From positions 62,001 to 126,000 of the forward strand of contig CALKXJ010000001.1 of NCBI GenBank assembly GCA_938003835.1: a stretch of DNA of 64,000 nucleotides, in the 5' to 3' direction. The number at the start of each line of letters is the position of its first letter. Within the stretch, counting starts at the first letter, position 1. The stretch is from an uncultured Bryobacteraceae bacterium. Lineage in GTDB: Bacteria > Acidobacteriota > Terriglobia > Bryobacterales > Bryobacteraceae. The notes under the pieces are model-generated. The model saw nothing but the letters and a program-made list of their open reading frames with translations, was not told the DNA's origin and ran no database searches. Positions 35,099 through 64,000 of this stretch are shown in pieces. A program made the position numbers and the translations under genes.

Positions 35099-36187
35099 AT
35101 GCGCATCGCCAACGTAGTCGGCGCCCGGCCCAACTTCATGAAGATGGCGCCGGTGATCGCCGAGATGCGCCGCCGCGGTCTGGTGCAGGAGCTGATCCAC
35201 ACCGGCCAGCACTACGACGCCAACGTCTCCGAAGTTTTCTTTCGCGAGCTCGGGCTGCCGGAGCCGGACGTTTACCTGGGCGTCGGCTCCGACAGCCAGG
35301 CGCGCCAGACCGCGCGCATCATGATGGCCCTGGAAGAGGTCTGGCTGGCGCGGCGGCCGGACCTGGTGGTGGTGGCCGGCGACGTCAATTCGACGATGGC
35401 CGCAGCGCTCGTGGCGGCCAAGCTCACCATCCCGGTGGCACACGTCGAAGCGGGGCTCCGTTCCTTCGACCGGACCATGCCCGAGGAGATCAACCGCATC
35501 GTCACGGACCGGCTCTCGGATCTCCTGTTCACAACGGAGGAGAGCGCCAACGCGAATCTGCGAGCGGAAGGCACGCCGGCCGAACAGATCCATTTCACCG
35601 GCAATTGCATGATCGACACCCTGGATCGGCATCTCGAGGCCGCCGTGGCGCGGCGGCCGTGGCAGCAGTTCGGCCTCGAGCCCGGCGGCTACGGCCTGGT
35701 GACGCTGCACCGGCCCTCGAATGTGGACGAGCCGGCGACGCTGGCGGCGCTTCTCGCCGTCCTCAACGAACTCTCGGCGCGGCTGCCCTTGCTTTTCCCC
35801 GTGCATCCGCGGACGAGCAGGCGGCTGGCCGAGCATGCCATCTCCGCCGCGCCCTCGCTGCGGCTTTGTGAGCCGCTTCCCTACCTGGCCTTTTTGGGGC
35901 TGATGGCAAAGTCGCGCTGCGTGCTCACCGATTCGGGCGGCATCCAGGAAGAGACCACGGCGCTCGGCGTCCCCTGCCTGACGCTGCGCCGCAACACTGA
36001 GCGCCCGGTGACCGTGACGCACGGCACCAACCGGCTGGTGGGTACGGATGCTGCCGCGATCCGGGCGGCGTTCGAGGCAGCCGTCGACGAGGTTCCGCGC
36101 CCTGTGCGCCGGCCGCCGCTCTGGGACGGCCAGGCCGGCCGCCGGATCGTCGACATCATCGAAGCCTGGGCCGCTTCACGGCGTTAG
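35099..36187 (+). CDS. wecB: UDP-N-acetylglucosamine 2-epimerase (non-hydrolysing)
   Basis: Interconverts UDP-GlcNAc and UDP-ManNAc for surface polysaccharides. 362 residues, standard length. Signatures: GARPNFMKMAPVI (8-20), TGQHYDANVS, VVVAGDVNSTMAAALVAA, HVEAGLRSFDR, TEENINR-like PEEINRIVTDRLSD, and DSGGIQEETTALGVP. In relatives the next enzyme is often WecC, but the dehydrogenase here is of AlgD type, so UDP-ManNAc may be used as such. It converges with the lyase gene and overlaps it by 12 bp. Confidence 0.96.
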   Translation: MRIANVVGARPNFMKMAPVIAEMRRRGLVQELIHTGQHYDANVSEVFFRELGLPEPDVYLGVGSDSQARQTARIMMALEEVWLARRPDLVVVAGDVNSTMAAALVAAKLTIPVAHVEAGLRSFDRTMPEEINRIVTDRLSDLLFTTEESANANLRAEGTPAEQIHFTGNCMIDTLDRHLEAAVARRPWQQFGLEPGGYGLVTLHRPSNVDEPATLAALLAVLNELSARLPLLFPVHPRTSRRLAEHAISAAPSLRLCEPLPYLAFLGLMAKSRCVLTDSGGIQEETTALGVPCLTLRRNTERPVTVTHGTNRLVGTDAAAIRAAFEAAVDEVPRPVRRPPLWDGQAGRRIVDIIEAWAASRR

Positions 36188-44016: not shown

Positions 44017-46188
44017 TCATTGTACTCCTCGAGCCGGCTGTTCCCGCGCGGGACGTGCGCCCGCACTCACTTGAGCCGCCTCCTCTTCGAGAATCGCCAG
44101 ATCCCAGGGGGCCAGCTTGAGCACCTGATTCGGGCGCACCGGCGCGCCCGTGAGAAGGTCCCTGGCCGGCGCGTAGGGGTATTCGAAGCTCTGCGGCCGT
44201 CCGGAGTAATTGAGGTAATACCGCATCGGGCGGCCCTCCCGGCTGAAGCCATGGCGGACCAGCACCGGCTCCGGCAGCTTTTGGTCCGGGCCGTTGAGGC
44301 CGGCCAGGGCGAGAACGCTCAAAACCACTCTTTCCTGAAGTAGGTCCGAAAGGTAAGTCCCCTCATAGGTGAGCGTGCCGCGTCCATAGCGATTCCGCGT
44401 AAGTGCAGGGTAGCGAGAGAAAAAGGAATGCTCATAGACGGCCAGGCTTTCGCAGCCTTCGGGCAGGATCATCTCTGCCCAGACGCTCACCCGGTTCTCC
44501 GGGCCGGCGCCAAACGGATCGCCCCGTAATGCCACCGGCTCGGCCAGAGTCGAAAACTCCTGGTAGCTGAATCCGGCGGCCGTGCGGAGCGGTCCCGGAG
44601 CGCGCTGCCAGCGTATGGTCGAGTGTTCGTTCGCGAAGCCGCTCTTGAAAGCCACCAGCGCATGCCCGCCGCGGTGGATCCAGGCGGCGAGGCGCTCGAG
44701 CAGCGCATCGTCCGCGATATAGAGCGGGGGCACCAGGATCATGCGGTAGCGGTCCCAGTCCGGCTGCTGCGGGAAGAGGAAATCGACGCCGACTTTGAGC
44801 CGGTATAAAGACCGATACATCTGATGGAGGATGGTGAGGTAGTTGACCCTGTCGTCAAACGGCATGAACTGAATGCCGTGATGGGAATCGAGACTGACCA
44901 GAATGGCGACCTGGTTTCGAGGTACGAAATCGGCAAGCCGCGGCCCAAGTCGCTTGAGCTCGGCGCCGATGCGGGCGGCCTCCTCATAGACACGATTGGG
45001 CTCCAGGTCGTGAGAGAGCAGACCCTTCCAGTAGGTCTCCTGGCCGTAATGGAGCGAATGCCAGTGCCAGTAAGCGACCATGCTCGCTCCGGCGGACAAG
45101 TGACTGTAAGCGTTCAGGCGAAGCTGGCCGTCGTAGGGAGGAAACTGCGTGCGCGAATCCCAGCCGATGGTCTGGGCGTTGGTCTCCATCACCAGATAGT
45201 TGGCGCGTTTGAGCGAACGCGCCAGATCTCCCGAGAAATGGATCTGCCAGCCGTCGAGCCGGTCCTGGACGGGATGGTACGGGTTCACCGCGGCCACATC
45301 GAGAAGCTGCGCGATCTCATACTGATCGACTTCGGTGCGCAGGCCGCCCGGAAAGTTGTGAGTGACGAAGTGATGCGGCCGGGCGTACTGGCGCACGATC
45401 GATGCCTGCCAGCGCAAGAAGTCGGTCACCGTCTTGCGCTGATAGCGTTCCCACTCGAGCTTGTAGCCGGGATTGAGAATTCCCTCACGCCCGGGGAAGT
45501 CATCCCAGCCGCTCACTAACTGGCCCCAATAAGCGAAGCCCCAAAGCCGGTTGAGGCGCTCCACCGTGCCGAACTTTTCTTTTAAGTAATCCAGAAAGCC
45601 GGCGTGCATGCTGCGGGAGTTCGAGCTATTCGGGTGCGTCTCATTATCGATTTGAAATCCGATGATGGCGGGGTGATCCTTGTAATGCTCCAGCAGGCGG
45701 CGGATCAGGCGCTCGGCGTACCAGCGGTAGGTCGGATGGGTGAGGTCGACGTTCTGCCGCGGTCCATAGGCGCCCGCGGGTTCGGAGGCGAAATAGGCCG
45801 GCTCGTAGCGGTCCGGCCCGAGCGGCAGTCGTGCGCCGAGGCGGCGCACCGCAATCTCCGGGTGCTTATGATACAGCCACGGCGGGATCGAGTATGTGGG
45901 CGTGCCGAAGATCACCCGGATGCCGGCCTGATGCAGCCGGTCGAGAATCCGATCCATCCAGGCGAATTGGAACTCCCCGTCGCGGGGTTCGAAGCTGCTC
46001 CACGTGGATTCACCGACTCGAACCACATTGATGCCGGCCTTCTGCATCAGCTCGACGTCTTGTTCGAGGCGCTCGTACGGCATGTATTCGTGATAGTAAG
46101 AGGCGCCGAAGAGGATCGTTTCCAACTGCGGCGGGGCGGCGGGGGCAAGGGCGGCAGCCGCCAGCATCAGAGGCAGGAGGCATTTCAC
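44017..46188 (-). CDS. Exported GH42-family beta-galactosidase
   Basis: A 723-residue clan GH-A glycosidase with a signal peptide (about 1-18). Acid/base E183 in IIGFQIDNETH, nucleophile E335 in YLVMETNAQ, three domains as expected for GH42: TIM barrel, a Rossmann-like trimerisation domain starting about residue 425 (NQVAILVSLDSHHG) and a C-terminal sandwich. Beta-galactosidase or alpha-L-arabinopyranosidase action is likely. GTG start; its GGGAGG lies in the end of the beta-helix gene, 4 bases away, so the two are coupled. Confidence 0.93.
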   Translation of the reverse strand: MKCLLPLMLAAAALAPAAPPQLETILFGASYYHEYMPYERLEQDVELMQKAGINVVRVGESTWSSFEPRDGEFQFAWMDRILDRLHQAGIRVIFGTPTYSIPPWLYHKHPEIAVRRLGARLPLGPDRYEPAYFASEPAGAYGPRQNVDLTHPTYRWYAERLIRRLLEHYKDHPAIIGFQIDNETHPNSSNSRSMHAGFLDYLKEKFGTVERLNRLWGFAYWGQLVSGWDDFPGREGILNPGYKLEWERYQRKTVTDFLRWQASIVRQYARPHHFVTHNFPGGLRTEVDQYEIAQLLDVAAVNPYHPVQDRLDGWQIHFSGDLARSLKRANYLVMETNAQTIGWDSRTQFPPYDGQLRLNAYSHLSAGASMVAYWHWHSLHYGQETYWKGLLSHDLEPNRVYEEAARIGAELKRLGPRLADFVPRNQVAILVSLDSHHGIQFMPFDDRVNYLTILHQMYRSLYRLKVGVDFLFPQQPDWDRYRMILVPPLYIADDALLERLAAWIHRGGHALVAFKSGFANEHSTIRWQRAPGPLRTAAGFSYQEFSTLAEPVALRGDPFGAGPENRVSVWAEMILPEGCESLAVYEHSFFSRYPALTRNRYGRGTLTYEGTYLSDLLQERVVLSVLALAGLNGPDQKLPEPVLVRHGFSREGRPMRYYLNYSGRPQSFEYPYAPARDLLTGAPVRPNQVLKLAPWDLAILEEEAAQVSAGARPAREQPARGVQ

Positions 46189-46192
46189 CGGT

Positions 46193-47758
46193 TCACCTCC
46201 CGGAGCGAACCTCGTGGGCGCCGATGCTGAGCGGTCCCTGGCGGGGCAGCGGATTCCCGAAGAAGTCCACCGGGCCGGGATCGATCTTGAACCGGGCGCG
46301 CAGGTCCAGACCGGCAGCCGCAGCGGGTGAGTCGGGCAGGAGGCGGAAATCGACGAGCGTGTCGAGCTTTCGCGGATCGGTGAGTAGCGCCGGTCCGGTC
46401 CGCACCAGGCGCGGCTCCGCGAAGAGGCCGACCAGGCGTCCGTCGAGCCACTCCTGCCCCGAGGCTCTCGCCCAGGCCTCGAGCTCTTTGTGCGGTCCGC
46501 AGCGGAAGCCGCGTTCTCCGAGCGCCCAGTACAGATTGGCTAAAAACTCCCCGACCCAGCCCACCTCTTCGGTGCGGTTGTAGATGAGCGGACCCTGACT
46601 GACGAACAGATTGTTGTAAAAAGTAATGCGCGGCAGGTGGGCGGCGTATTTCTTGCTGATGCCCAGGCCCACCGCGGAGCCTTTCGAGTTCCAGACAGTG
46701 TTGTTGTGCACCAGCGTGCTTTCCATGCCCACGCCGCCGACCCAAACGAAGATGCCGGCGTTGTGATCGAACAGGCCGTCATCCTGGCTGATGTTGTAAC
46801 GGACGACGTTATTGGCGAAGCGCGGCGCACCTTCGTACTGGCAGATCAGATAGCCGGAACCGAAGTTATTGTGTGAGTAGTTGTACTGGAGAATGGAATT
46901 GGTGACGCCGCCGTCGAAGTCGAAGCCGCCGCCGTCGAGCGCCGTGCTGCGGTTGTGGTGGGAGATGCAGTATTGGATGAGCACGCGGTCGGCGTCGTGC
47001 GTCCAGATGCCCACCGGCCCGTTACCCGTCCAGGGCATGTCCCAGCCGTTATAGCGAGCCTCGCAGCGTTCGATCACGGCGCCATCGACGTAACCGAGCA
47101 CAATGCCGTTTCCGGAGTGGTTCTTGCGGACGGTGGGGTCGCCGGGGTTGTTTTCTGCCAGCGAGTCGCCGATGTAGAGATTGCGCGAGCGCGCGCCGCC
47201 GCGCTCGCCGCCGGAGTGGATCCCGGCAAAGCCGTTGTCGTGCGCGTGGACGTGCGTGATGCGGACGTCCTCGCTGGCCGTCACGTAAATGCCCGCGTGG
47301 CGGAAGCCGCTCACTTCGACGCGCGTGATGGTGGAGCCTTTCGAGCGGGCCAGATACAGGCCGTGCGCCGTGTTGCCGCTGTTGCGCCCGGCGCCGACGA
47401 GCCGGAGGTTTTCCACCAGCACGTGATCGCAGCCGTCGATTGAAATCGCGCGGCCCGTTCCCCCGTCGATGGTGGCACGGCCCGCTCCCCAGGAGCCGAT
47501 AACGAGGTTCTGCGTCGGAGTCGCTTTGTCATCGGAAGCGAGCTCGAGCGGGCCGGCGAAGCTCTGACCGCCTTCGAGCAGGATGCGGTCACCGGGGGCG
47601 AAGCGGGTGGAGTTGACCTTGCCCAGGGTCTTCCATGGCCTCTCCAGGGTGCCCGGGTTGCCGTCGTCGCCGCGCGGGCTGAGATAGTAGTCGGTGGCCG
47701 AAGCCGGAGCCAGCGCCAAAAGCGGCGCCAGCAGGGCGAGCAATCGAATTGGCAGCAC
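46193..47758 (-). CDS. Exported right-handed parallel beta-helix protein
   Basis: A 521-residue secreted protein, signal about 1-21. The N-terminus DYYLSPRGDDGNPGTLERPW is the standard opening of pectate-lyase-like beta-helix proteins, and the body is a string of short turns with NNTVWNS, HNNFGSG and NNLFVSQ ladders. Possible activities are polysaccharide lyase or glycosidase; no catalytic set can be named by eye. In a minus-strand series between the receptor and GH42, so a polymer-cleaving role fits. It follows the receptor after 90 bp holding a strong hairpin. Confidence 0.82.
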   Translation of the reverse strand: MLPIRLLALLAPLLALAPASATDYYLSPRGDDGNPGTLERPWKTLGKVNSTRFAPGDRILLEGGQSFAGPLELASDDKATPTQNLVIGSWGAGRATIDGGTGRAISIDGCDHVLVENLRLVGAGRNSGNTAHGLYLARSKGSTITRVEVSGFRHAGIYVTASEDVRITHVHAHDNGFAGIHSGGERGGARSRNLYIGDSLAENNPGDPTVRKNHSGNGIVLGYVDGAVIERCEARYNGWDMPWTGNGPVGIWTHDADRVLIQYCISHHNRSTALDGGGFDFDGGVTNSILQYNYSHNNFGSGYLICQYEGAPRFANNVVRYNISQDDGLFDHNAGIFVWVGGVGMESTLVHNNTVWNSKGSAVGLGISKKYAAHLPRITFYNNLFVSQGPLIYNRTEEVGWVGEFLANLYWALGERGFRCGPHKELEAWARASGQEWLDGRLVGLFAEPRLVRTGPALLTDPRKLDTLVDFRLLPDSPAAAAGLDLRARFKIDPGPVDFFGNPLPRQGPLSIGAHEVRSGR

Positions 47759-47848: not shown

Positions 47849-50800
47849 TCAGAACTCGAACCGCGCTCCCATTTGCATGGTGCGGTAATAGCCGCCATCG
47901 ACGCCGGTCACCTGCCCGAACAACGGCCGGGCCGGGTTGGTTTCGATCGTCGAGAAGCGGTGCCGATTGAAAGCATTCAGCAGCTCCCAGCGGAACTGGA
48001 AGCGCAGACGCTCCTTGACGATCCAGTTCTTGTGCAGGCCGAAATCGTCATCGTAGAACGGGAAGCCGCGGGCGCCGCTCATGCGGAACGAGGCGTTCCC
48101 GAACATGTAGCGGTCGACGTCGGCCGGGTCGCGAATGATCGCGGTGTTGATGATCTTATGGTTCGGATTGACCCGGGTGATCGAGGCCATATCGAACTTC
48201 GCCGGGTCGAAGTCCACCATCAGGGGCTGATTCTGTGGGTTGTGGATGAGCGCGCGGTTGGTGGCCGCATTGAAATTGGGAATCGAGGTGCCAGCGAAGC
48301 CGAGCGGCATGCCGCTGCGGTAGTTGCCGATGTATTGCAAGGTCCAGCCGCCTGCCAGAAACTCCAGCACCGGGTGCAAGGCGGTGGCGAACCTACGCCC
48401 CCGGCCCACCGGAATCTCCCAGGAGACTGCCGCTTTGACGACATGTGTCTGGTCGTAGGGCGAGATCGTCTTCTCGAGCCGCAGGTTGTAATAGTCCATC
48501 GGGCGGCCCGAGTTCACCCAACTGTGGAAGGCGTTCTCCATATTGTCCAAAGACTTCGAGAAGGTGTAGTTGGCCAGCCAACTGATGCCGTGCGAGTAGC
48601 GCTTGTTGAACTGAATCTGCAAGGCATTGTAAGTGGAATAGCCGAGCGGGGAATAGTAGGCCTGGAGCACGTTCCAGGAAAGCACCTGCGGGAACGGGGC
48701 CAGCGTCTGCCACACCGGAACCCAACCGCCGCCGGGCCTCTGTGCCGCCGGAATTCTCTCGTAGGGATAGACGGCGCCCAGGGCGCGGGCCGACTCGGGC
48801 AGGGCGGCCTGACTGTTCACCCACTTGCCGAGATCGTCGCGCAGGCTCAGGAAGCGGGGATGAACCTGGTTGATCTGGCGAGCCTGGTTGAAGGTCAAGC
48901 CGACGCTGGTGGTGCCGATGTAGCCAATGTCGAGCACCATCTGGCCGGGCAGCTCAAACTGGAAGTTTGCGTTCCATTGCTGCGTGTAGCCGACCTTGCC
49001 GCCCTCCGGGTCCCAATAGGTGAGATTCCACTGCGAGCCGGTGGAGTTGGACGGATCCAGCTTGGCCGCCTCGACCTTACCGGGATAGCCGTTGTCCCAG
49101 TTGAAAGCCGGATAGATGCCGCGGCTGGGCACGACATTGGTCTGCGTGAAGCCGTACTTGTTGCCGTAGGGCACCCCCGACCACTCGTTGGGAACGCGCG
49201 CCAGGTAGAAGATCCCGTAGGCAGCCCGGAAGACGATCTTCTCGGTCACCTGATAGGCGAGGCCGGCACGGGGACCGAAATCGTTCCACTGATCCTCGAT
49301 GAACTTCTTTTTACCGCTGCGGCCCGGCCCGGAGCCCGCGAACTCGACGGCACCGGGCAGCCCGGTGAGAGGATCGGTCAGCCGGGGGTTGAAGTGATGC
49401 AGCCGGTCATGCCACTCCGTCTGCACCGGCTGGCCGTCCCAGCGCAGGCCGAGGTTGAGCGTGAGCCGTGGCGTCAGCTTGATGTCGTCCTGGACGAAGA
49501 GCCCGATCGAGTACATCTGAGAGGTGGTCGGCGTCAGGATCGGCACGCTGGCGCTGGCCACTTCGCCCAGGAAGAAGCTGGCGAACGGGTGGCCGGTGCG
49601 CGCAAAGCCGGGCAGGCCTGTATGGTCGGCCGAGAAGTTGAAGGTGCCGGGCCCGGGATTGCCGGTGTCGGCGAGTGTCAGCTTCTTGACGTCGCCGCCG
49701 AACTTGATCGTGTGGCGCCCCTTCATCCAGGAGACCGTGTCGAGGATCTGGTAGGTGGTGCCGATCAGCTTGTCGTTGGCCAGGTAGCCGATCGTCGCCA
49801 GGTTGACGCGGTCGCCACCGCCCCAGTTGATCTGCGGCCAGTTGCTCTTGCCGTTGATGCCTTTGAGGCCGAGGATCTCGCCGCCCGGCTCGTTGACGTG
49901 CCAGGAGGTGGAAGGGTTGAGCTGGCGGTTGAAGGCCGCACCGAAGTGATTGAGCAGCGTCGGCGAGAGGGTCCAGTCGTAGGCCAGCCGCGCCATGAAG
50001 GTCTCCACCTTCTGAAGGCGGGCGCGCGACAACGGACCGCCTTTCTCCGGATCGTTAAAGTCCCAGACGCCGCCCTGGTCGAGCAGCGTCCGCGGCCGGT
50101 CGATCCAGGCGTAGGAGCCGCTCAGCTTGTGCTGCGCCGAAAAGTAATGGTCGCCCTTGATGGAGAACTGCTTCTGCTCGAACTTGGCGGTGTTGAAGGC
50201 GGGGAAGAAGGCATTGTTGATCAGCGCGTCGGGGATGGCCGGAGCGTAGTGCTTCTTCATGATCTCGGCCACCTTCTGCGAGACCGCCGACATGCGGCTC
50301 TTGGGCAGGATGTTGCCGGGGAACGGATCCCGCACCACGGTCCCGTCAGGCAGCGTGCGCACGGTGGCCGGGTCGTAGATCTGCCCCCGATAGACCGTGC
50401 GGCCGAGCGCGTCCCGGCCGAGCACCTCGCCGGTGAGGTAGTTGCTCATGTCGCCCTCGTACCAGGGGAGCGTCGGCACGGTGACGCTCGGGGTGCCCAC
50501 GCCGCGGTTGGCGTCCTGGTACTTCTCCCAGGCGACGTAGAAGAAGCTCTTGTCTTTGCCGTGATAGAGCCCGGGGAAGATGATCGGGCCGCCGCCGGAG
50601 ATGGCCCAGTTGTTGCGCCGGTCGCGCGGCCGGGGACGGCCGTAGAAGTTATTGGCAAACGAGTTGGCGTTCATCCACTCGTTGCGGAACTGGTACATGC
50701 CGGTGCCGTGCCAGTCGTTGGTGCCGGATTTCATGACGAAGTTGAAGATGCCGCCGGCGGTGCGGCCGTACTCGGCGCTCATGCCCGAGGTTTGCACCTT

Positions 50801-51448
50801 GAACTCCTCGAGCGCCTCCATCGAGACCGAGCTCTCACCGAAGTGGCCGGTGATGTAAATGGTGGCGGAGGCGCCGTCGAGCAGCACCTCTTTGGTAAAG
50901 GCGGGGCTGCCGTTGATCCGGCTGGTCCAGTTGTTGCCCTCGACGCCCGGCGTGAGCTTGTAAGCGAAGTTCTCCGGGTAACGACCGCCGCTGAAGCTTA
51001 GCGGGAGATCGATCACACGGGTGTTGTCGAGCGACAGCCCGACGTCCGGCGTGTCGGTCTGTAAGAGCGGGGTTTCGGCGGTCACGGTGACCGATTCGGT
51101 GGTCGCACCGAGCTCCATGGTGACATCGATGCGAGCTACCTGCCCGATCTGGAGGCGAAGCCCTTCGCGCACGATGGTTTTGAAGCCGTCGGCTTCGAAA
51201 GTGAGGCTGTAGGTGCCGATCGGCAGGGCGGGCACGGTGTACTGGCCGAGCTCGTTCGTGCGGGTGTTGTAGAGCGCATTGGTGGCGAGATTCCGCACCG
51301 TGATCCGCACGTTGGGCACGGCCGCGCCCGTCGGGTCGGTCACGATGCCGGTAAAGGCGCCGCGATCCTGCTGAGCAAGGATTGCCGGGACGGCGACGAG
51401 CAGGGCGGCGCAGAGCAATGTGGCCGGAAGGCTGCGATCGCGGTTCAC
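47849..51448 (-). CDS. TonB-dependent Oar-like outer-membrane receptor
   Basis: A 1199-residue receptor. Signal about 1-25 (ending AILAQQ), a carboxypeptidase-regulatory-like domain (about 30-115, FTGIVTDPTGAAVPNVRITV), a plug region after about 120 (SVTVTAETPLLQTD), then a long beta-barrel ending in aromatic F as expected. These CarboxypepD_reg receptors without SusD are typical of Acidobacteria and are thought to bring in large polymers or peptides. GTG start with GGAGG 6 bases upstream. First gene of the minus-strand series; regulator diverges from it. Confidence 0.92.
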   Translation of the reverse strand: MNRDRSLPATLLCAALLVAVPAILAQQDRGAFTGIVTDPTGAAVPNVRITVRNLATNALYNTRTNELGQYTVPALPIGTYSLTFEADGFKTIVREGLRLQIGQVARIDVTMELGATTESVTVTAETPLLQTDTPDVGLSLDNTRVIDLPLSFSGGRYPENFAYKLTPGVEGNNWTSRINGSPAFTKEVLLDGASATIYITGHFGESSVSMEALEEFKVQTSGMSAEYGRTAGGIFNFVMKSGTNDWHGTGMYQFRNEWMNANSFANNFYGRPRPRDRRNNWAISGGGPIIFPGLYHGKDKSFFYVAWEKYQDANRGVGTPSVTVPTLPWYEGDMSNYLTGEVLGRDALGRTVYRGQIYDPATVRTLPDGTVVRDPFPGNILPKSRMSAVSQKVAEIMKKHYAPAIPDALINNAFFPAFNTAKFEQKQFSIKGDHYFSAQHKLSGSYAWIDRPRTLLDQGGVWDFNDPEKGGPLSRARLQKVETFMARLAYDWTLSPTLLNHFGAAFNRQLNPSTSWHVNEPGGEILGLKGINGKSNWPQINWGGGDRVNLATIGYLANDKLIGTTYQILDTVSWMKGRHTIKFGGDVKKLTLADTGNPGPGTFNFSADHTGLPGFARTGHPFASFFLGEVASASVPILTPTTSQMYSIGLFVQDDIKLTPRLTLNLGLRWDGQPVQTEWHDRLHHFNPRLTDPLTGLPGAVEFAGSGPGRSGKKKFIEDQWNDFGPRAGLAYQVTEKIVFRAAYGIFYLARVPNEWSGVPYGNKYGFTQTNVVPSRGIYPAFNWDNGYPGKVEAAKLDPSNSTGSQWNLTYWDPEGGKVGYTQQWNANFQFELPGQMVLDIGYIGTTSVGLTFNQARQINQVHPRFLSLRDDLGKWVNSQAALPESARALGAVYPYERIPAAQRPGGGWVPVWQTLAPFPQVLSWNVLQAYYSPLGYSTYNALQIQFNKRYSHGISWLANYTFSKSLDNMENAFHSWVNSGRPMDYYNLRLEKTISPYDQTHVVKAAVSWEIPVGRGRRFATALHPVLEFLAGGWTLQYIGNYRSGMPLGFAGTSIPNFNAATNRALIHNPQNQPLMVDFDPAKFDMASITRVNPNHKIINTAIIRDPADVDRYMFGNASFRMSGARGFPFYDDDFGLHKNWIVKERLRFQFRWELLNAFNRHRFSTIETNPARPLFGQVTGVDGGYYRTMQMGARFEF

Positions 51449-51547
51449 ATCAGACCTCCGTTGGAAACTTCCCTGAATGAGGGCTCCCGAACTGAGCCGG
51501 GAGAGCGAACATCCGCTCCAATGATAGGTCCCCGGAGCCGGCCGGGC

Positions 51548-51580
51548 AAGGTTATTGCCGCTACCGGAAGGCTAATGCCG
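51548..51580. repeat. Two 13-bp direct repeats, 20 bp apart, in a divergent promoter region
   Basis: AAGGTTATTGCCG (51548-51560) and AAGGCTAATGCCG (51568-51580) agree at 11 of 13 positions and are spaced two helical turns apart, the layout of head-to-tail winged-helix operators. They lie about 100 bp before the receptor start and 186 bp before the regulator start, in a 317-bp gap. The rest of that gap holds a 6-bp inverted repeat (51484-51503) and a TACAAT (51738-51743) with GGGAGGG before the regulator GTG. Confidence 0.5.
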
Positions 51581-51765
51581 GGGGTAAGTCGTTGAAAGGG
51601 AAGAAAGTTGCGGCGGATGAGGCGCTAGAGCGGCGAGCGTCGGCCCGCGCCGCCTGTCCGGGGAAGGCGCCCGCAACCGCCCCGCTTCGCTCATAAGGCG
51701 CACGCTGTTGGTGGCCACAGTCGTTCGCCGGTAACGATACAATAACGGTTAGCGGGAGGGTTACC

Positions 51766-53097
51766 GTGTCGGGTCGGCCGGCGATGGGTTCAATCTCCCA
51801 TCACGAAATCCGCCAGGAGCTCGAACGGATCCTGCAAAGCCGCCACTTCGCCAAGGCCCCCAAGAAGCGCCGCTTCCTCGAGTTCGTTTGCCAGGAGACG
51901 ATCAGCGGCCGCGGAGGGCAGCTCAACGAGCACCTCATCGGGATGGAGGTGTACGAGCGGGGCCCGGATTTTGATCCCCACGAAGACTCGATCGTGCGGG
52001 TGCAGGCGCACGAGTTGCGCAAGTCCCTGGCGCGCTACTACGAGCAAGAGGGCAAGCGCGACCCGATCCGGATCGATCTGCCGCCGGGAAACTACATGCC
52101 GGTCTTCACCCGTGCTCCGGAGGAGGCGCTAGCCCCGGCCGCAGAAGCGACACGCGCGGGCCGTCCCGGGCGGCGGTGGGAGCGCCTGGCTCTCCTCCTG
52201 TTGTTGGGGGCGACGGCGACGCTCAGCATCGCGCTCGTTCAATTCTACCGCTATCGACCTGCGGAGCCGGCCTGGGCAGTTTCCTACACCCCGGCGATGG
52301 AATGGTTTTGGGGCCGCTTTTTGCCGCCGGCGGCGCCGCCGCTGATCGTGCTACCCGTGCACCCCATTTTGCGGGCGGCGCACGAGGGTGACAGCGATCG
52401 CACGCGCGCCTCCGGTTACGTCATCCCCAAAGACGAGCTCACCGAGTTCCGCGACACCGTCCACTATCGCGAACTCAAACAGTTCGCCTTCGTGCCGTCG
52501 ACCACGGACTTTACGGCCATCGGGGAGACGCTCGGCCTGGTGCGGCTGTTTCAGCTCTTCGCCAGCGCCGGCCAAAGCGTCCGCGTCAAAGCGGCGCGCC
52601 TGGTCGACTTCGAAGAGGTCAAAGCCTCGAACGCGATCCTGCTTGGGGGCAACCAGGCCTGGAGCGGCCGAATCTTCCTTTACAAAGAGGGATTCTGGTT
52701 TCACGAGGGGCTGATCAAGAACATGCGGCCGCAGCCGGGCGAGCTGAGCGTCTATCGACCTGTGTTCGACCCCGTGACCAACCAGCTCCGCCGCGACTAC
52801 GCCCTCGTGCTGATGCTGCCGAATGAGAACCGCGAGCGGCGGATCCTGCTGAGTTATGGCATCTACACGCAGGGATCCCAGGCGGCCATCGAGTTCATGA
52901 CGAACCCGGATCGCCTGGAGGAGCTGCGGCGCGCGCTCTTGGCCGCTTCGCCGGATGGAAAGACCCTGCCGGATTACTTCCAGGCGCTGATCGAGACTAC
53001 AGTGGAGAACGCCGTGCCCGGTCCATCGTCGCTCGTGGCGGTGCGCTTGGTGCCGGAGGAGGGGCCGGCCGTGGCGGGATTAGTGCGCGAGGAGTGA
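51766..53097 (+). CDS. Membrane-anchored winged-helix-like regulator
   Basis: A 443-residue protein. Residues 12-115 match the winged-helix-like module found at the N-terminus of many acidobacterial and rhizobial regulators and adenylate cyclases: RFLEFVCQETISGRG, LIGMEVYERGPDFDPHEDSI, VRVQAHELRKSLARYY and IDLPPGNYMPVF. One membrane span follows (about 140-162), then a 280-residue extracytoplasmic domain I do not recognise. That topology is like ToxR/CadC: DNA-binding inside, sensing outside. Placed back-to-back with the receptor genes, it is a candidate to control them through the repeats at 51548. Regulation is inferred. Confidence 0.75.
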   Translation: MSGRPAMGSISHHEIRQELERILQSRHFAKAPKKRRFLEFVCQETISGRGGQLNEHLIGMEVYERGPDFDPHEDSIVRVQAHELRKSLARYYEQEGKRDPIRIDLPPGNYMPVFTRAPEEALAPAAEATRAGRPGRRWERLALLLLLGATATLSIALVQFYRYRPAEPAWAVSYTPAMEWFWGRFLPPAAPPLIVLPVHPILRAAHEGDSDRTRASGYVIPKDELTEFRDTVHYRELKQFAFVPSTTDFTAIGETLGLVRLFQLFASAGQSVRVKAARLVDFEEVKASNAILLGGNQAWSGRIFLYKEGFWFHEGLIKNMRPQPGELSVYRPVFDPVTNQLRRDYALVLMLPNENRERRILLSYGIYTQGSQAAIEFMTNPDRLEELRRALLAASPDGKTLPDYFQALIETTVENAVPGPSSLVAVRLVPEEGPAVAGLVREE

Positions 53098-53264: not shown

Positions 53265-56261
53265 TCAACGCAGGGTATGGAATTCCACCTCGAGCGCGAA
53301 GGTGTCGTTCGCCTCGCTGCTGGCCGGCTGCCAGCCTGTGAGATGCTGGCGGATCAGATCCGCGTTGCCGATGATGCCGAACCGCAGCGTGGGTACCGTT
53401 CCGCCGGAGCTCGGCAGGCTCGGCAGATCGCGGACGCTGATCTGGCCGGAATGGGTCGCGCGCGCCATATAGGTCGTGTAGGTCCACGAGATCTCGAGGG
53501 AAACGAGCCGGCTGCCGTCGGCCGTCAGTGCCCCCTTGGTCTGCACCGAGGTGGTCTCCTGATTGCCGAAATCGGCGCGGCAGCTCGCCTGAAAGGCGGG
53601 TCCGCTCCACTGGAGATCGCACGCGTTGCCCGGCACCGCCTGAAGCGCCCTTCCCTTGGTGTTGTCCGCGGCGGCATCGTAACGGGAGACCCGCGTGCGA
53701 TTCTTCACGCTGATGGTGACGCACCGAAACGGTTGGATGGAAGAGAGAACCTCGGCCTCCAGTTCGATCCGCGTCTGGCCGGTATACGGCCGCTGCGCGC
53801 GCGGGTTCACCAGCAGGATGTAGAGATACGGGTTCGAACGGGCAACCGACTCGGCGCTGTCGATCCGATACTCGTCCGTGAACCGCTGCATCAGCGCATG
53901 CGTGGCGCCGGAGCGGCGGTAGACGAACGCCACCGCCTTGCGGTTCGGGTCTCGCAGCCGGAGCACGATCGTGGTGCCGGCAGCCCAGTTCAGCTTGGCG
54001 GCGTCGAACCGGATTTCATACTGGGCGGCCGAAAGATCGGGCGCGTCCCAGCTGAAGGTGAACTTCGTAGGAGAGCCGGCCGTGAAGGTGGAACCAGCGA
54101 CGGCGCTCTGTCCGGCCCGGTCGCTTGTGCGAAACAGCTTGAAGTCGATCGCAGGATGCACGCGGCCTTCGACATACTCCCGGCAAAAGTCGACCCAGCG
54201 GTCCTCGAGAAAGACGTCCTTGCGGTGGAGCGCCTCCACCGGAGTGTTCCGGAAATCCTTGAAGATCAGCCCGGTGGACTCCTCGCTCAGCTTGATGAGA
54301 TCGCCGATGACGCTATCGTTGCCGCGAGTGAAGTACCTAAGGAAGGTCGCCGCGCCGTAGCCGTGGCGGCGCACCGCAGCCGTGCCGGTCAGCGCGCTCG
54401 ACGAGCTCGGCAGTTGCTCGAGGCCCCCCTGGAAGAGGAACTTCGCATTCGCCCGCGTGTTGTCGGAAAGGTAGTTCCGGCCGGCCGAGGACATCTTCTG
54501 CTCGAACCAGGTCGAGGCGGCCTCCCACATCCAGAGCCAGGACGCGCCGGAGAAGGTGCGCTGACCCCAGCGGCGAGGGTCGGAGTAGCTCTGGAAGATG
54601 TGAAACAGCTCGTGCCCGACGGTGGTGCGAAATTCCTCCTTGCTCCGGTGATAGGTGTTCAGGTTCAGTTGCAGGCCCATGTCATCCCGGCCCCAGATCT
54701 CGCTCTCGGTCATGCCGTGCGCTTCGTCGTCGAGGACCATCATCTGGCCGGGCAGATCCGAAAACCGGAACAGATAAACGTCGATCGGCGTCCGGCGCTT
54801 GCCGTCGGTGTCGATGCCGATCGCCTTCAGCTTCCCAAGCGCCTCCTCGAGAATCTTGCCGGTGTCAATGGCCGCTTGATAGTCCGCGTCCTCGCCGAGC
54901 GGATACCAGACGATGAACTTGCGGTTCGGCGAAGGCTCGGTCCGGAATCCCGCCATGCCCCAGAGGGTGGCCGTCACGAACTTCGGGATGATAAATGCCT
55001 GGCGGCGCCTCTCGCCATCGTCCGCGGCGGCTGCCTCCGGCGCCGCCATCGCCGAGGAAAGCTGGTTCTCCAGAGGCGCCGTAGCCGGCAGCGTGGCCTC
55101 GAGCCGGCCGTCGGCGATCCTCGCCCGTAACCGGACCAGCCCGGCGTCCCGCTCCGAGCCGATCTTCAGCAGAACGATCCCTTCTCCGGCGGGCGCCGGG
55201 GAAGCCAGCGGAAAGCTGATCGTAAGCGGCGCCGAGAATTCCGTTGGCAGCCCGGAGACTCTCCAGATGGAGGTGACCAGGTTGCCGCGAGGCTGGACGC
55301 TTTGAGTCGAAGCGGCCACGGCGAGCCTTTGCTCTTCACGAAAAGCGCCGGCCGGCACCCCGATCCGGACACCGCCGGCCGACAGCGCGCCCCCACCGGG
55401 GCCAATTGTGGCCGATGCCGCCTCGCGCCAGGAGTTGGTTCCGCCCGCCACCCAGACGTCGCCCTGAGAGCCCGCCCCCTCCAGTTGGACAAGCAGCTCA
55501 TGACGCCCATCGGGAAGGAATTGGGGCATGCGCAGGTTGACCTGGTAGAGGCCGACCCACCCTGGCGCTAGGCCGCCCCATAACACCTCCGCCCGGTTTC
55601 CGCCCACCCAGATCTCCGGCGTCTGGTCGCAAAGGTTCAGCGGGCCCAGATTCGCGTTGTTGCCGGCCGGAGCCCCGAGGGCGGGCAGGGGCGTGACGGG
55701 TCCAAGACCAGTCAGATAGAGGACGAGGATCTCGCCGGGCGCTGCCGGATCCTCCTCGGAAACCAGCACATAACGGTCACCCCGGACGTGGAGAAGCAGC
55801 GGCTCCCCCTTGCCATCCATGGCCTTGGTGAACAGGCGCGGAAGATACAACCGCACCGGCACGCTGACCGGGCTGCTCGAGCCCGCCGCGGTGCGGACGC
55901 GGACCTGAACCTGCGCCCCCGAGACCTCGTAAGGCAGAAGGGCATTGATCTGTCCGGGAGCGACAAACCACAGCGGCGCGCGGACGGTCCGTGAGCCGTC
56001 AGTCACCTCGACGCTGACGCCCTCCAGCACGTCCGGCAGCGGGACGCGGTCGGCCAGGATCTGGCGCGGCGCCAGATTCGAGCCAAAAATCGACATCCAC
56101 ATACCCGGCGCGAGCTCCGGCGTATAGTCGGCCGCATTGACGACTCCGGACGGGTTGATCACCGGCGGAGCGGTCTGAGCCGCGGCCTGCCAGGGAGCGG
56201 CAACGGCGACCAGGGAGAGAAGAGAAAGGCGGGATAAGAAAATAGATAAACAGATCTGCAT
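53265..56261 (-). CDS. Secreted HExxH protein with N-terminal Solibacter Ig-like domain
   Basis: A 998-residue exported protein (signal about 1-29). Residues about 33-272 match the Solibacter-type TIGR03437 domain, normally found at C-termini: NPSGVVNAADYTPELAPG, WMSIFGSNLAP, WFVAPGQINALLPYEV and VLYLTGLGPVTP. A ZU5-like domain follows (about 283-400, IGPGGGALSAGGVRIGVPAG), then HELFH (550-554) and WLWMWEAASTWFE with E580 as likely third zinc ligand. The order ZU5-like then HExxH is the same as in the 1265-residue protein at 38.2 kb. C-terminal 290 residues are beta-rich. Proteolysis is inferred. Confidence 0.85.
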   Translation of the reverse strand: MQICLSIFLSRLSLLSLVAVAAPWQAAAQTAPPVINPSGVVNAADYTPELAPGMWMSIFGSNLAPRQILADRVPLPDVLEGVSVEVTDGSRTVRAPLWFVAPGQINALLPYEVSGAQVQVRVRTAAGSSSPVSVPVRLYLPRLFTKAMDGKGEPLLLHVRGDRYVLVSEEDPAAPGEILVLYLTGLGPVTPLPALGAPAGNNANLGPLNLCDQTPEIWVGGNRAEVLWGGLAPGWVGLYQVNLRMPQFLPDGRHELLVQLEGAGSQGDVWVAGGTNSWREAASATIGPGGGALSAGGVRIGVPAGAFREEQRLAVAASTQSVQPRGNLVTSIWRVSGLPTEFSAPLTISFPLASPAPAGEGIVLLKIGSERDAGLVRLRARIADGRLEATLPATAPLENQLSSAMAAPEAAAADDGERRRQAFIIPKFVTATLWGMAGFRTEPSPNRKFIVWYPLGEDADYQAAIDTGKILEEALGKLKAIGIDTDGKRRTPIDVYLFRFSDLPGQMMVLDDEAHGMTESEIWGRDDMGLQLNLNTYHRSKEEFRTTVGHELFHIFQSYSDPRRWGQRTFSGASWLWMWEAASTWFEQKMSSAGRNYLSDNTRANAKFLFQGGLEQLPSSSSALTGTAAVRRHGYGAATFLRYFTRGNDSVIGDLIKLSEESTGLIFKDFRNTPVEALHRKDVFLEDRWVDFCREYVEGRVHPAIDFKLFRTSDRAGQSAVAGSTFTAGSPTKFTFSWDAPDLSAAQYEIRFDAAKLNWAAGTTIVLRLRDPNRKAVAFVYRRSGATHALMQRFTDEYRIDSAESVARSNPYLYILLVNPRAQRPYTGQTRIELEAEVLSSIQPFRCVTISVKNRTRVSRYDAAADNTKGRALQAVPGNACDLQWSGPAFQASCRADFGNQETTSVQTKGALTADGSRLVSLEISWTYTTYMARATHSGQISVRDLPSLPSSGGTVPTLRFGIIGNADLIRQHLTGWQPASSEANDTFALEVEFHTLR

Positions 56262-60288: not shown

Positions 60289-62259
60289 TTACGGAAGCGG
60301 CTCGGTCGAGGCCGAGCCGGTCTCGAGATCCCGCACCATGCGCCAGCGCTTGCCGGCGACGGCGGCTTCGACGGAAAGCCGCGAATCACCCGGCGCGAAG
60401 GAGCCTGCCAAGCGGGCGGTCGCCTCCGGGGGAGAGCCGCCGACGTACGGCACCAGCACAGTCATGAGAACCGCGGGCGCCTGGCGGCGAAGACGCCAAG
60501 TAGCGACCTGGCGGGGCTCCTTGCGGTTCAACTCGTAGCTGATCTGGCCCTCGGCGAGCCGCAGCTCCGCCTCCGTTTCCGCCGCGGCAACCACCAACAG
60601 GTTGCCGCCCCCGGCAAAGTCGGTGCGCACGGCCGCTCCGCCGGGGTCGGCTTTCACCTCGCCGGGTGCAAAGGGGAAGTGCACCTCGAGCACGCCCGGT
60701 GCGTCTCCGAGTGCTTCGTCGACCAGAACGACCCAGCGCCGTTCGGGAAAGAAGACGCTGCGCCGGTGCACCAGGCGCGGGTAGGATTCATTCTCGAAGA
60801 CGACCGCATCGCCGTGAGGGCCGGTCTGAAATAGCAGATGCCGTGGCGCGTTGGTCGAGTTGGCGCCGTCTAGGGTGAGCGTGGCGTGGGCGGCAGTGCG
60901 GCGGAACCAGTCCCGTTCGGCGGCGAAAGGCGTGTTTGGATAGGCGAAGGCACCGCTGTCGGCGATCAGCCACCTCCCGCCGAAATAGAGCTCAAAGGTG
61001 CCGTTATCGGGCTGGTCGTGGCCGGAGATGGCCGGCGGGCTCGCATGCAGCGCCACGAAGACCGCCTCGGGATCCCAGCCGGAGCGGAGAAAATACATGC
61101 CCGACGCGGCAAAGGCGCGGGACAGCCAGGCGGGGCGCGGACCAGGACGCCGCTCGGCCATGGCGGCGAGTTCGGGCTTGCCGAACAATCGCGCCGCGAT
61201 CCGCATCGGCTCGGGATCGGGCCGGGCGCCGGGCCTGCGCTGGGTGTCGCCGAACATGGGCGTGCTGCCGTCCGGGGCGGTCATGGCAAGCCAGAAGTCG
61301 AACATCTTCTCTGTCAATTCGTGGAGCGATGGCGGGGCTTCGTGGCCATTGTCGCGGGCCACAGCGAGCGCCTGGACTAACAGGGAGGCCACCAGCATGT
61401 GATAAGAAGGCGACCATTCCCGCTGCACGCCTTCGGGGGTGACTTGGCGGGGCACGTTCTCGGCGAGGAGCTCCCAGGCGCGCTCGATCCACTGCCTGGC
61501 CTCGCGCAGCTCGGGGAACATAATTCCCAGCCGCAGCAGGCCCACGGCTTCGATTACGGCCTTGTTGTGAGGCGATCGGCGCGGATAAAGCGACATTTTG
61601 CGCCCATGGTCGACGACGGCAGCGAGCAGGGCGGCCAGGAATGGGCCGTCGATCGCCCCTGAGCCGCGCAGGCGGTCGAAAGCCGCCGCCCACGCGGCGG
61701 CCCGCAAGCCCACCTGAATGTCGAGCCAGGCGAAATGCTCGGGATCTACGGGGTGGTTCCGAATCCAATCCGAGGTCAGCCGGACCCAGCCCTGCGCGTA
61801 CTTGGTGTCTCGGGTCGCTTCCCAGGCTTCGAGCAACGGCGCCTGCCAGTAGAAGCGCTGCACGGCCGCTACCCATTCGATATCTCTGACCGGATCGGCC
61901 ATCCAGTCAATCTCCCGGCCGTAACGCTGCGGAGGATAACCGAAGCCGAGATCGAAGACGTGATCGAGGACGGCGTCGGCTCGGGCAATCTGGCCGGCGG
62001 CAGCCGCGATCGGCCGGCTGTCGTAGCGCACGGTCGTACGTTTGGCGTAATAGGCGGCCAGAAGAGTCATGGCACGCTCAAAGTCGCCGGCCGCGGCCGC
62101 GGTGCGAACGGGTTCCAGCTCCGGGCGCTCGAGGTCAAGCGCCTCGAAAAGCCGCTGGGTCGGGAAGGGCTCGAGGCCGCGCTGGCTTGCGGCAGCCGGC
62201 GCGAGCACGAACAGGAGAAGGACGCAAGCGGGCCCGTGTCGGCCTCGAGCGGACGCCAT
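60289..62259 (-). CDS. Exported heparinase II/III-like polysaccharide lyase
   Basis: A 656-residue protein with a signal peptide (about 1-25). The toroid has SPHNKAVIEAVGLLRLG and EWSPSYHMLVASLLVQAL; the beta-sandwich holds SGHDQPDNGTFELYFGG near residue 417, the counterpart of GHSHSD in the lyase at 36.2 kb. The two lyases are distant paralogues. The receptor gene upstream ends 3 bases before its start, so receptor and lyase are one unit: import or surface binding plus uronic-polymer cleavage. PL family number not assigned. Confidence 0.83.
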   Translation of the reverse strand: MASARGRHGPACVLLLFVLAPAAASQRGLEPFPTQRLFEALDLERPELEPVRTAAAAGDFERAMTLLAAYYAKRTTVRYDSRPIAAAAGQIARADAVLDHVFDLGFGYPPQRYGREIDWMADPVRDIEWVAAVQRFYWQAPLLEAWEATRDTKYAQGWVRLTSDWIRNHPVDPEHFAWLDIQVGLRAAAWAAAFDRLRGSGAIDGPFLAALLAAVVDHGRKMSLYPRRSPHNKAVIEAVGLLRLGIMFPELREARQWIERAWELLAENVPRQVTPEGVQREWSPSYHMLVASLLVQALAVARDNGHEAPPSLHELTEKMFDFWLAMTAPDGSTPMFGDTQRRPGARPDPEPMRIAARLFGKPELAAMAERRPGPRPAWLSRAFAASGMYFLRSGWDPEAVFVALHASPPAISGHDQPDNGTFELYFGGRWLIADSGAFAYPNTPFAAERDWFRRTAAHATLTLDGANSTNAPRHLLFQTGPHGDAVVFENESYPRLVHRRSVFFPERRWVVLVDEALGDAPGVLEVHFPFAPGEVKADPGGAAVRTDFAGGGNLLVVAAAETEAELRLAEGQISYELNRKEPRQVATWRLRRQAPAVLMTVLVPYVGGSPPEATARLAGSFAPGDSRLSVEAAVAGKRWRMVRDLETGSASTEPLP

Positions 62260-62262
62260 CGT

Positions 62263-64000
62263 TTAAAAAGAATACTTCAGCGCGAGCTGGATGACTCGCT
62301 GGCCGCTCTCGTGTCCCGGACCCTGGTTGGCCGTGGTGATCCTGCCGAAGGTGCTTGGCGCTTGCAGGTTCAGACCAGGCGTTCCCAGGTTGACGTGATT
62401 GAAGAAGTTGAAGAACTCGGCGCGGAACTGGAGGTTGTGCCGTTCGGCGAAGCGGAAGTTTTTCGAGGCCAAAAAGTCGACGTTGTTCAGCCCCGGCAGA
62501 TGGATGGGATGGCGGGGCGCCGTGCCGAAGCGCCCGAGCGGCGTGGGGGCGAATGCGGCGGTATTGAACCACCTCTCGCGCGAGCGCTGGCCGCGGGGCA
62601 GATTGGGGTTCCCAATCAGGTCCGGCCGCGAGCTGATGCCGGTGCCGGTGGTGTCGCCTACGCCGGAGAGCGTGGAGGCAAAGCCGGTCTGTTCGGTGAC
62701 GATGGCGCCAATCTGCCAACCGCCCAAAGCCGTCCGCAAGGCCGGGCGGGCCGCCGCGCGGAAGAAGGGCAAATCGTAGATGAGCGCCAGCGAGAACCGG
62801 TGGCGGAGGTCATAGGCGGCATGAGACTTTTCGCCGCGCAGGTTGAAGATGTCCTGCACGGAAGCGCTGTAGAAGCCGCCACCCACCGTGCTCTGGTCCA
62901 TGCCGCTCAGGGCCTTCGACCAAGTGTAGGAGGCGATGAAGCTCAACCCGCTTGAGGTGCGGCGTTCGGCGCGCATCTGCAAGCTGTGATAGGAAGAGTT
63001 GCCCACGCTCTTGGCGACGCTCATGCCGCCGAAGCCCGCAAAGGGGCGCCGGCTGGCTACCGATGGCACGCCGGGCCCCGGTGTGACCACTTGAATCGGG
63101 CGATTCCCGTCGAATCCGATCACCAGGTTCGTGCCTTTCGTGCCCACGTAGCCGATGTCGAAATGAATCGAGGCGGGCAGCTTCTTCTGAATCGTCAGGT
63201 TCCATTGCTGTGCATAGGCGTCGCGCAGCCGGGGATCGACCGACTGCGTGCCGAACAGACCCGCGACGGCTTTGCCCTCTCCAAGAAAGACGGTGTCCAC
63301 CGGAAGCGGCTTGTCGAAGGTGCTCTCGAAGGTGAAGTTGCGCACGATGGGCGGGTTCAGCGTGAGCACGGTAAAGGAGTTGGTGATCTCCTGCGTGTAG
63401 TAGAGGCCGTAGCCGCCGCGCACCACCATGTCCGCGATCCGCGGCGCCTTCCAGGCAAAGCCGAAACGCGGTCCGAGGTTGTTCTTGTCGTCAAAGACCA
63501 GTGCCCGTCTCGGATAGCCCGGCGTATCGGGCAGATTGTCGCTCGGCGGAAAACCGCCGTAGAGCTGGCGAGAGACGGTGAAGCCCGGCACGGCGCCCAA
63601 CAGCTCGAAGTTCGTGATCTTGCCCCGCTCCACCGGCGGCTGGTAGTAGTCATAGCGCAGGCCGATGTTCAAGGTCAGATTTGGGGTGACCCGCCAGTCG
63701 TCCTGAAGGAAATAGGACTGCCACCAGTGATTCATCCGGTTGGCGAAGGGGTCCGGGCTGAGGCTGGCGTTGACCGCCAGGCCCAGCAGATAGGCGGCGA
63801 AGGCGTGCTCGCGCACCGGCGAGACGCCGCCGGAGGTGGTGCGGCCGTCGAAGCCGAAGACGCCGCGCGGATTGAAGGCCTCGTCGAAGCTGAAGTTCCG
63901 CCGGAAGATCATCAGGCCGGTCTTGACCGAGTGGCTCCCTTTGTACCAGGAGAGGGTGTCGCCCACCTGCCAGATCTGGTTGTGCTGGTCGGCCGGACCA
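62263..64000 (-). CDS. TonB-dependent Oar-like receptor, C-terminal part (runs off right edge)
   Basis: About 578 residues of an outer-membrane barrel; the N-terminal plug and carboxypeptidase-regulatory-like domain lie outside the window. VGDTLSWYKGSHSVKTGLM, NLTLNIGLRYDYYQPP, GPRFGFAWKAPRIAD and FRAEFFNFFNHVNLGTPG are spellings shared with the receptor at 47.8 kb. It ends in aromatic F (KYSF). The frame is open to base 64000 with no sign of a start, so the gene is cut by the edge. Confidence 0.92.
   Translation of the reverse strand, partial: GPADQHNQIWQVGDTLSWYKGSHSVKTGLMIFRRNFSFDEAFNPRGVFGFDGRTTSGGVSPVREHAFAAYLLGLAVNASLSPDPFANRMNHWWQSYFLQDDWRVTPNLTLNIGLRYDYYQPPVERGKITNFELLGAVPGFTVSRQLYGGFPPSDNLPDTPGYPRRALVFDDKNNLGPRFGFAWKAPRIADMVVRGGYGLYYTQEITNSFTVLTLNPPIVRNFTFESTFDKPLPVDTVFLGEGKAVAGLFGTQSVDPRLRDAYAQQWNLTIQKKLPASIHFDIGYVGTKGTNLVIGFDGNRPIQVVTPGPGVPSVASRRPFAGFGGMSVAKSVGNSSYHSLQMRAERRTSSGLSFIASYTWSKALSGMDQSTVGGGFYSASVQDIFNLRGEKSHAAYDLRHRFSLALIYDLPFFRAAARPALRTALGGWQIGAIVTEQTGFASTLSGVGDTTGTGISSRPDLIGNPNLPRGQRSRERWFNTAAFAPTPLGRFGTAPRHPIHLPGLNNVDFLASKNFRFAERHNLQFRAEFFNFFNHVNLGTPGLNLQAPSTFGRITTANQGPGHESGQRVIQLALKYSF

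Follow-up and report, generated by a model that had tools for sequence, protein, structure and literature searches.

A conserved three-box, operator-like element between a TonB-dependent receptor gene and a divergent membrane-anchored winged-helix regulator in Acidobacteriota

The tandem boxes of PhoB adjoin the -35 element. Bacteroidota PUL regulators (hybrid two-component systems, SusR) adjoin a receptor and glycan-degrading enzymes. The ToxR site at ompU is given as a direct repeat, TNAAA-N5-TNAAT, at positions -51 to -37 (PMC7496328). A survey that, by its own description, relied on Pfam DNA-binding-domain models places Acidobacteriae among the lineages with more transmembrane regulators (PMC10269533), and the paralog groups described for Solibacter include TonB receptors (PMC3174227). 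A literature search found no work on Acidobacteriota regulating such receptors via a neighbouring membrane regulator.

The locus presented here is part of a 64,000-nucleotide stretch of DNA from an uncultured Bryobacteraceae bacterium (termed the window). The genes and protein segments that concern the analysis are:

44017..47758, minus strand: genes behind the receptor, a beta-helix protein (46193–47758) and a GH42 beta-galactosidase (44017–46188), with putative co-transcription
47849..51448, minus strand: CarboxypepD_reg/OMP_b-brl_4 TonB-dependent receptor of 1199 aa, the presumed first target
51766..53097, plus strand: membrane-anchored winged-helix regulator of 443 aa
51787..52131, plus strand: DNA-binding domain of the regulator, residues 8–122 (predicted alone: pLDDT 93.9, pTM 0.86)
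52186..52242, plus strand: transmembrane segment, residues ~141–159 (hydropathy 2.12 vs 1.14 for the next stretch)
52273..53067, plus strand: predicted outer (periplasmic) domain, residues ~170–434, from the structure model

The regulator resembles ToxR and CadC in its predicted layout, with a winged helix of OmpR type (by fold) in the cytoplasm, followed by a single membrane span and an outer domain. Unlike these, it lacks any match in Pfam or NCBIfam, it has an outer domain similar to BcsB and GH67, and its family is paired with a TonB receptor, whose N-terminus is encoded divergently upstream of the regulator in 58/97 loci (the 97 being the best-scoring matches and not a random draw, some of them cut by contig ends). 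The fold of the DNA-binding domain is shared with the PhoB/OmpR response regulators, but the window regulator has a membrane span following its N-terminal DNA-binding domain, and no receiver (Response_reg) domain or kinase was found in it. Its place beside a receptor and glycan-degrading enzymes is that of Bacteroidota PUL regulators; it differs from these in being a single-span winged-helix protein with neither kinase nor receiver detected. Among 24 aligned proteins (the window protein and 23 orthologs) no Pfam family is shared between members, even with a cut-off as loose as E ≤ 10. Because the family lacks a Pfam match, a survey by Pfam models, as PMC10269533 describes its approach, would be expected to miss it.

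The DNA-binding domain was compared with known structures. VIA-align places SaeR (three entries), PhoB, CadC, PhoP, RRA and ArlR in its top eight rows, with Z values from 7.2 to 6.1, and the next row is at 5.2. SaeR gives Z = 7.2, and PhoB on pho box DNA (1gxp_E) gives Z = 6.7 with 87 aligned residues at 4.0 A. This resemblance to OmpR/PhoB/CadC winged helices agrees with the winged-helix regulator named in an earlier reading made from the sequence alone (termed the sequence-only reading), and the N-terminal domain is predicted to be of the OmpR type by fold arrangement only, with Z below 8. A Foldseek search with this domain yielded 39 matches at E ≤ 10, none of them at E ≤ 0.001 and none of the OmpR type, and a PDB sequence search yielded three matches (E = 1.5–2.4) with no regulator among them. 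The whole regulator model also had no Foldseek match at E ≤ 0.001.

A single membrane span, likewise proposed in that reading, is indicated both by hydropathy and by the structure model, which has a helix at residues 136–163 (parts of residues 200–260 are at pLDDT 56–77). A hydrophobic maximum follows the DNA-binding domain in 24/24 proteins (window and 23 orthologs) and is weak in one of them, L128 (1.69 vs 1.43). The outer domain aligns by VIA-align with BcsB (Z = 10.9, 171 aligned, 3.7 A) and with the N-domain of GH67 glucuronidase (Z = 9.6, 128 aligned, 3.0 A); the best Z values for the GH115 and GH84 N-domains are 8.8 and 8.1. The likeness of the modelled domain to BcsB and to glycoside hydrolase N-domains hints at glycan sensing.

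The receptor matches PF25183 with 576.8 bits (cut-off 30) and PF13620 with 75.7 bits (cut-off 32.3). Its neighbours in the window include carbohydrate enzymes (GH42, beta-helix, heparinase-like), with the heparinase II/III-like gene at 36176–38140, ~10 kb further behind the receptor. On the other side, at 53265–56261 and convergent to the regulator, is an open reading frame for a 998-aa protein with a TIGR03437 stretch (Solibacter domain) and a weak match to the MXAN_6640 HExxH metalloprotease. The presence of the Solibacter domain suggests Acidobacteriota.

A gap of 317 bp separates the receptor start (GTG, 51448, minus strand) from the divergent regulator start (GTG, 51766, plus strand). The elements discussed below are in this gap:

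51521..51526, minus strand: -10-like TATCAT, 17 bp from the -35-like hexamer
51544..51549, minus strand: receptor promoter, -35-like TTGCCC, directly next to box 3
51547..51576, minus strand: receptor-side operator candidate, three direct TARC boxes then CTTG, containing most of the 13-mer repeats
51548..51560, plus strand: first 13-mer, spanning box 3 plus one base (the first) of box 2
51568..51580, plus strand: second 13-mer, covering box 1
51730..51765, no strand assigned: regulator-side half-site cluster at the regulator's own start, less regular

The two direct 13-mers, AAGGTTATTGCCG (51548–51560) and AAGGCTAATGCCG (51568–51580), are situated between the two gene starts exactly as the sequence-only reading had placed them, with 11 of 13 positions identical and 20 bp from start to start. 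A repeat finder with a 6-base seed did not list the pair, whose longest exact run is 5. Pairs matching at 11 or more of 13 positions at a spacing of 19–23 arise in 30/1000 dinucleotide shuffles of the 317-bp gap and in 12/201 window tiles, and because of this frequency the pair by itself is barely notable. At any spacing from 13 to 45 the counts are 120/1000 gap shuffles and 58/201 window tiles. The two 13-mers were also considered as a wider unit and this was rejected: an EM search seeded with them drifted to the family motif CCGTTAAtTAACc, and the 33-bp pattern of both 13-mers, with 3 mismatches allowed, has a single occurrence in the genome.

The site is better described as three direct TARC boxes than as a pair of 13-mers, and in this form it is rarer. 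On the receptor-sense strand these are TAGC (51574–51571), TAGC (51563–51560) and TAAC (51554–51551), with spacings of 11 and 9. Any TARC triple with spacings of 9–12, on either strand, is found in 2/3000 gap shuffles and in 1/127 window tiles of 500 bp, where it should be noted that the three-box description of the window site was drawn up post hoc, after looking. The pattern TAGC-TARC-TAAC with the window gaps has one occurrence in the 5.0-Mb genome, the window site itself; the reversed pattern has 17.

Twenty-four ortholog loci, 50–70% identical and from genomes titled Acidobacteriota or Terriglobia, were obtained by scanning genome contigs with an alignment as query; a scan with the single regulator protein confirmed no ortholog. 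Two of the loci are from the same assembly, and 23/24 are non-redundant upstream. In a whole-genome search, regulator matches at E ≤ 1e-70 are present in 4/257 genomes of the order, its own included.

The receptor-side three-box element is found at 23/24 ortholog loci, always on the strand that runs divergently to the regulator. The ortholog boxes read T-A-A/G-C, are mostly 12 and 9 bp apart, and are usually followed by CTTG at the -35-like place. A triple within 900 bp, with a spacing of 11–12 then 9–10 and at least 11 of 12 box letters, is present in 22/24 orthologs. L113 (absent from the training set of the model described below) has its site at -1014, recovered by the model with 43.8 bits, and L126, without a site in the usual register, has an 11/12-letter triple at 9 and 9 bp instead. 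At the same threshold and register the far flanks show 7 triples in 489,212 strand-bases, in a stretch that includes the L113 site, and 0 exact triples. Exact triples at all spacings of 9–12 number 0 in 195,158 far bases vs 21 in 21,600 upstream bases. Pairwise identity over 23 rows including the window is 0.63 for the site, 0.28 and 0.29 for the flanks, and 0.90 for the boxes, the last partly built in by selection, as the TARC letters served to pick the sites. Recurrence of the repeats near orthologous receptor–regulator pairs, named in the sequence-only reading as its check, is thus what the loci display, in otherwise unconserved flanks.

In the divergent direction, 6 of the 24 orthologs have the receptor as the first gene and 17 have an intervening gene of ~354–476 aa; in L127 no receptor is visible on the contig. 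Where there is an intervening gene, the site precedes it in 15/17 loci. In the two other loci, L111 and L120, the gene in its longest reading extends over the site, which would require a later start. The L111 intervening gene (3419–4645), the sole such gene tested, is GH43-like with 25.6 bits, below the 32.2 cut-off, and a glucoamylase is encoded on the regulator's strand in L111.

A three-box model was trained on 22 ortholog sites, window excluded, and used to scan both strands of the 64 kb. The receptor-side site at 51547–51576 takes rank 1 (19.3 bits) and the regulator-side site at 51730–51765 rank 2 (16.2 bits); the next separate place has 9.3 bits. In 5000 gap shuffles a score of 19.3 is reached by 1 and a score of 16.2 by 3. 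Ortholog flanks outside the sites go up to 15.1 bits, and of all receptor-side copies that of the window scores lowest (19.3 bits vs 22.4–45.0 in the other 23). With a stricter model of 16 distant orthologs, six window-like or atypical ones having been dropped, the lead is narrow: 9.7 for the regulator side (rank 1), 9.2 for the receptor-side site (rank 2) and 7.2 for the best unrelated place. The shuffle and tile counts for the 13-mer pair could be taken to mean that the repeat is a chance match, but with counterparts in 23/24 orthologs and rank 1 in 64 kb this is hardly credible. The sequences support a genuine, conserved, operator-like element, whose use had been guessed correctly in kind. 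The claim of a putative binding site is supported, and is amended as to the unit, which is three boxes ~9–12 bp apart and not two 13-mers.

The CTTG after box 3, which was not used in site picking, is conserved in an alignment of 23 sites (22 orthologs and the window), with C in 21, T in 23, T in 22 and G in 20. Downstream there are T/A-rich -10-like columns in which the commonest letter accounts for 12 to 17 of 23. The array abuts the -35 and is therefore placed as an activator's site would be. In having direct repeats immediately ahead of a -35-like element, the window site is reminiscent of the ompU box of ToxR as given in PMC7496328, but it has three boxes vs two in the ompU box.

The regulator is probably an activator of the ToxR/CadC-like kind that acts via the three-box operator on the glycan-uptake operon next to it and in addition controls its own gene. 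It would be a one-component transcription factor in which an OmpR/PhoB-type winged helix on the cytoplasmic side is joined by a single membrane span to an outer domain, the probable sensor of a glycan fragment. Protomers would bind head-to-tail to the three T-A-R-C boxes, which directly precede the -35 element of the divergent promoter, and the bound regulator would contact RNA polymerase and turn on the receptor gene, probably also the glycan-degradation genes behind it. The sequences themselves establish the sites with their conservation, strand, spacing and promoter geometry, and the domain layout is predicted; we infer the regulator as binder, activation over repression, the ligand and the operon. 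The regulator's own promoter and start carry a second site, which would provide autoregulation.

The sequence-only reading had claimed a single site. That site is conserved, and a second, less regular one is found at the regulator's start. Read on the plus strand, it has the half-sites TAAC at 51732–51735 and 51743–51746 and GTTA at 51748–51751 and 51760–51763; it overlaps a -10-like TACAAT (51738–51743, plus strand) and abuts the regulator start. The 16.2-bit match is read on the minus strand, where two boxes are exact and the third is poor, and departs from the ortholog register, only 10/12 box letters being present there. A regulator-side triple with at least 11/12 box letters is present in 22/24 orthologs, as are both arrays together. 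In the 23 non-redundant orthologs, regulator-side TAAC spacings of 10, 12 and 22 bp are observed 17, 19 and 16 times vs 0.1 expected each. That the regulator-side TAACGGTTA alone is the operator, the receptor-side site being incidental, was ruled out, as the orthologs carry both sites. The regulator-side array of L118, upstream of 4959, apparently has more than three TAAC-type boxes.

In many orthologs the regulator-side site is, by eye, upstream of a TTGAC/TATCGT-like promoter. Autoregulation may thus differ in sign: the window site overlaps a -10-like element, so that in the window it is probably repression. This overlap, with the abutment on the start and the presence of both arrays in 22/24 orthologs, would also fit a regulator that binds both arrays as a ligand-released repressor of the receptor operon, perhaps bridging the two sites, and ToxR itself is called an activator, repressor or coactivator in PMC8517210. 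The receptor-side array, however, is upstream of the -35-like element and abuts it, the usual activator position, and does not cover the -10 or +1, and CadC is described as activating its target (PMC5430869). Repression of the receptor operon is thus considered unlikely, and activation is the preferred reading.

The core motif was sought more widely in a set of 47 non-redundant gaps, more or less distant, two of them from close orthologs and the window left out. TAACGG/CCGTTA is present in 21/47 gaps and CGGTTA/TAACCG in 17/47, vs 4.5 expected for each; TAAC repeats in 45 gaps peak at 11 bp (6 vs 0.2 expected). From the TAACGG/CCGTTA enrichment and the 11-bp peak, the core motif is judged to follow the regulator family. 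The family PWMs, trained on these gaps, locate the best site of the window's gap at 51741–51753 (51739–51754 for one), beside the regulator start, and 51741–51753 ranks 4, 2 and 11 in the window with three motif versions. In a subgroup of nine loci (L031, L048, L049, L058, L071, L083, L088, L090 and L097), the gaps measure ~80–91 bp and TTAACGGTTAA-like palindromes immediately precede the start of the regulator.

Other receptor loci of the genome were also scored. In 30 of them (from 66 barrel matches), the sense strand has at most 7.4 bits vs 19.3 at the window site, and the 7.4-bit maximum adjoins a paralogous regulator. This bears on the possibility that a different factor binds the arrays, or that they form a special promoter element, the regulator's presence being incidental. 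Box 3 does abut and merge with the -35-like element. However, the core motif tracks the regulator family over 47 gaps, the arrays are also at the regulator's own promoter, and the 30 receptor loci, two of them beside paralogous regulators, lack a comparable sense-strand site, which a general promoter element would be expected to share. Such a role for another factor or promoter element is therefore very improbable, and binding by the regulator is retained as the probable reading. Upstream of receptor L159 (own genome, C4) there is an antisense match of 11.8 bits, the highest among the 30 loci.

The whole receptor series had been proposed as the target. The scores confine this to the adjacent receptor, perhaps with the genes behind it, and leave out the 30 other loci. 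A genome scan for TAAC-TARC-TARC gave 4 places vs 25 for the reversed pattern, and since no receptor N-terminus was seen by eye among the nearby open reading frame starts, no wider regulon was found in the genome by this pattern. A TAAC triple in L133 of this genome (~1501–1526; C2:225964–225989) lies between two open reading frames; by eye, one start resembles a response regulator and the other a membrane histidine kinase.

Receptor regulation matters in this genome, which has 66 PF25183 receptor-barrel matches vs 4 members of the regulator family (by a DNA-binding-domain profile). All 4 have a divergent receptor of the OMP_b-brl_4/CarboxypepD type. The analysis supplies a concrete candidate operator together with its promoter geometry; the regulator itself has relatives (E ≤ 1e-20) in 189/200 genomes searched of the bacterial family. 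As a tentative suggestion, which we hold somewhat less probable than its opposite, the family, as yet undescribed and missed by surveys based on Pfam, may be a general glycan-sensing switch of Acidobacteriota, in which a BcsB/glucuronidase-like sensor detects a glycan fragment in the periplasm and the membrane-bound regulator acts via a three-box operator to activate a divergent TonB receptor operon, and the box spacing and sequence of paralogs diverge to insulate the circuits.

A second receptor is encoded at 60289–63966 of the window and runs past the window end (L038 spans G000:C1:126001–129169); a heparinase II/III-like gene follows the receptor, whose partner is a paralogous regulator at C1:127913–129169. 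There are two adjacent glycan loci, each with its own regulator.
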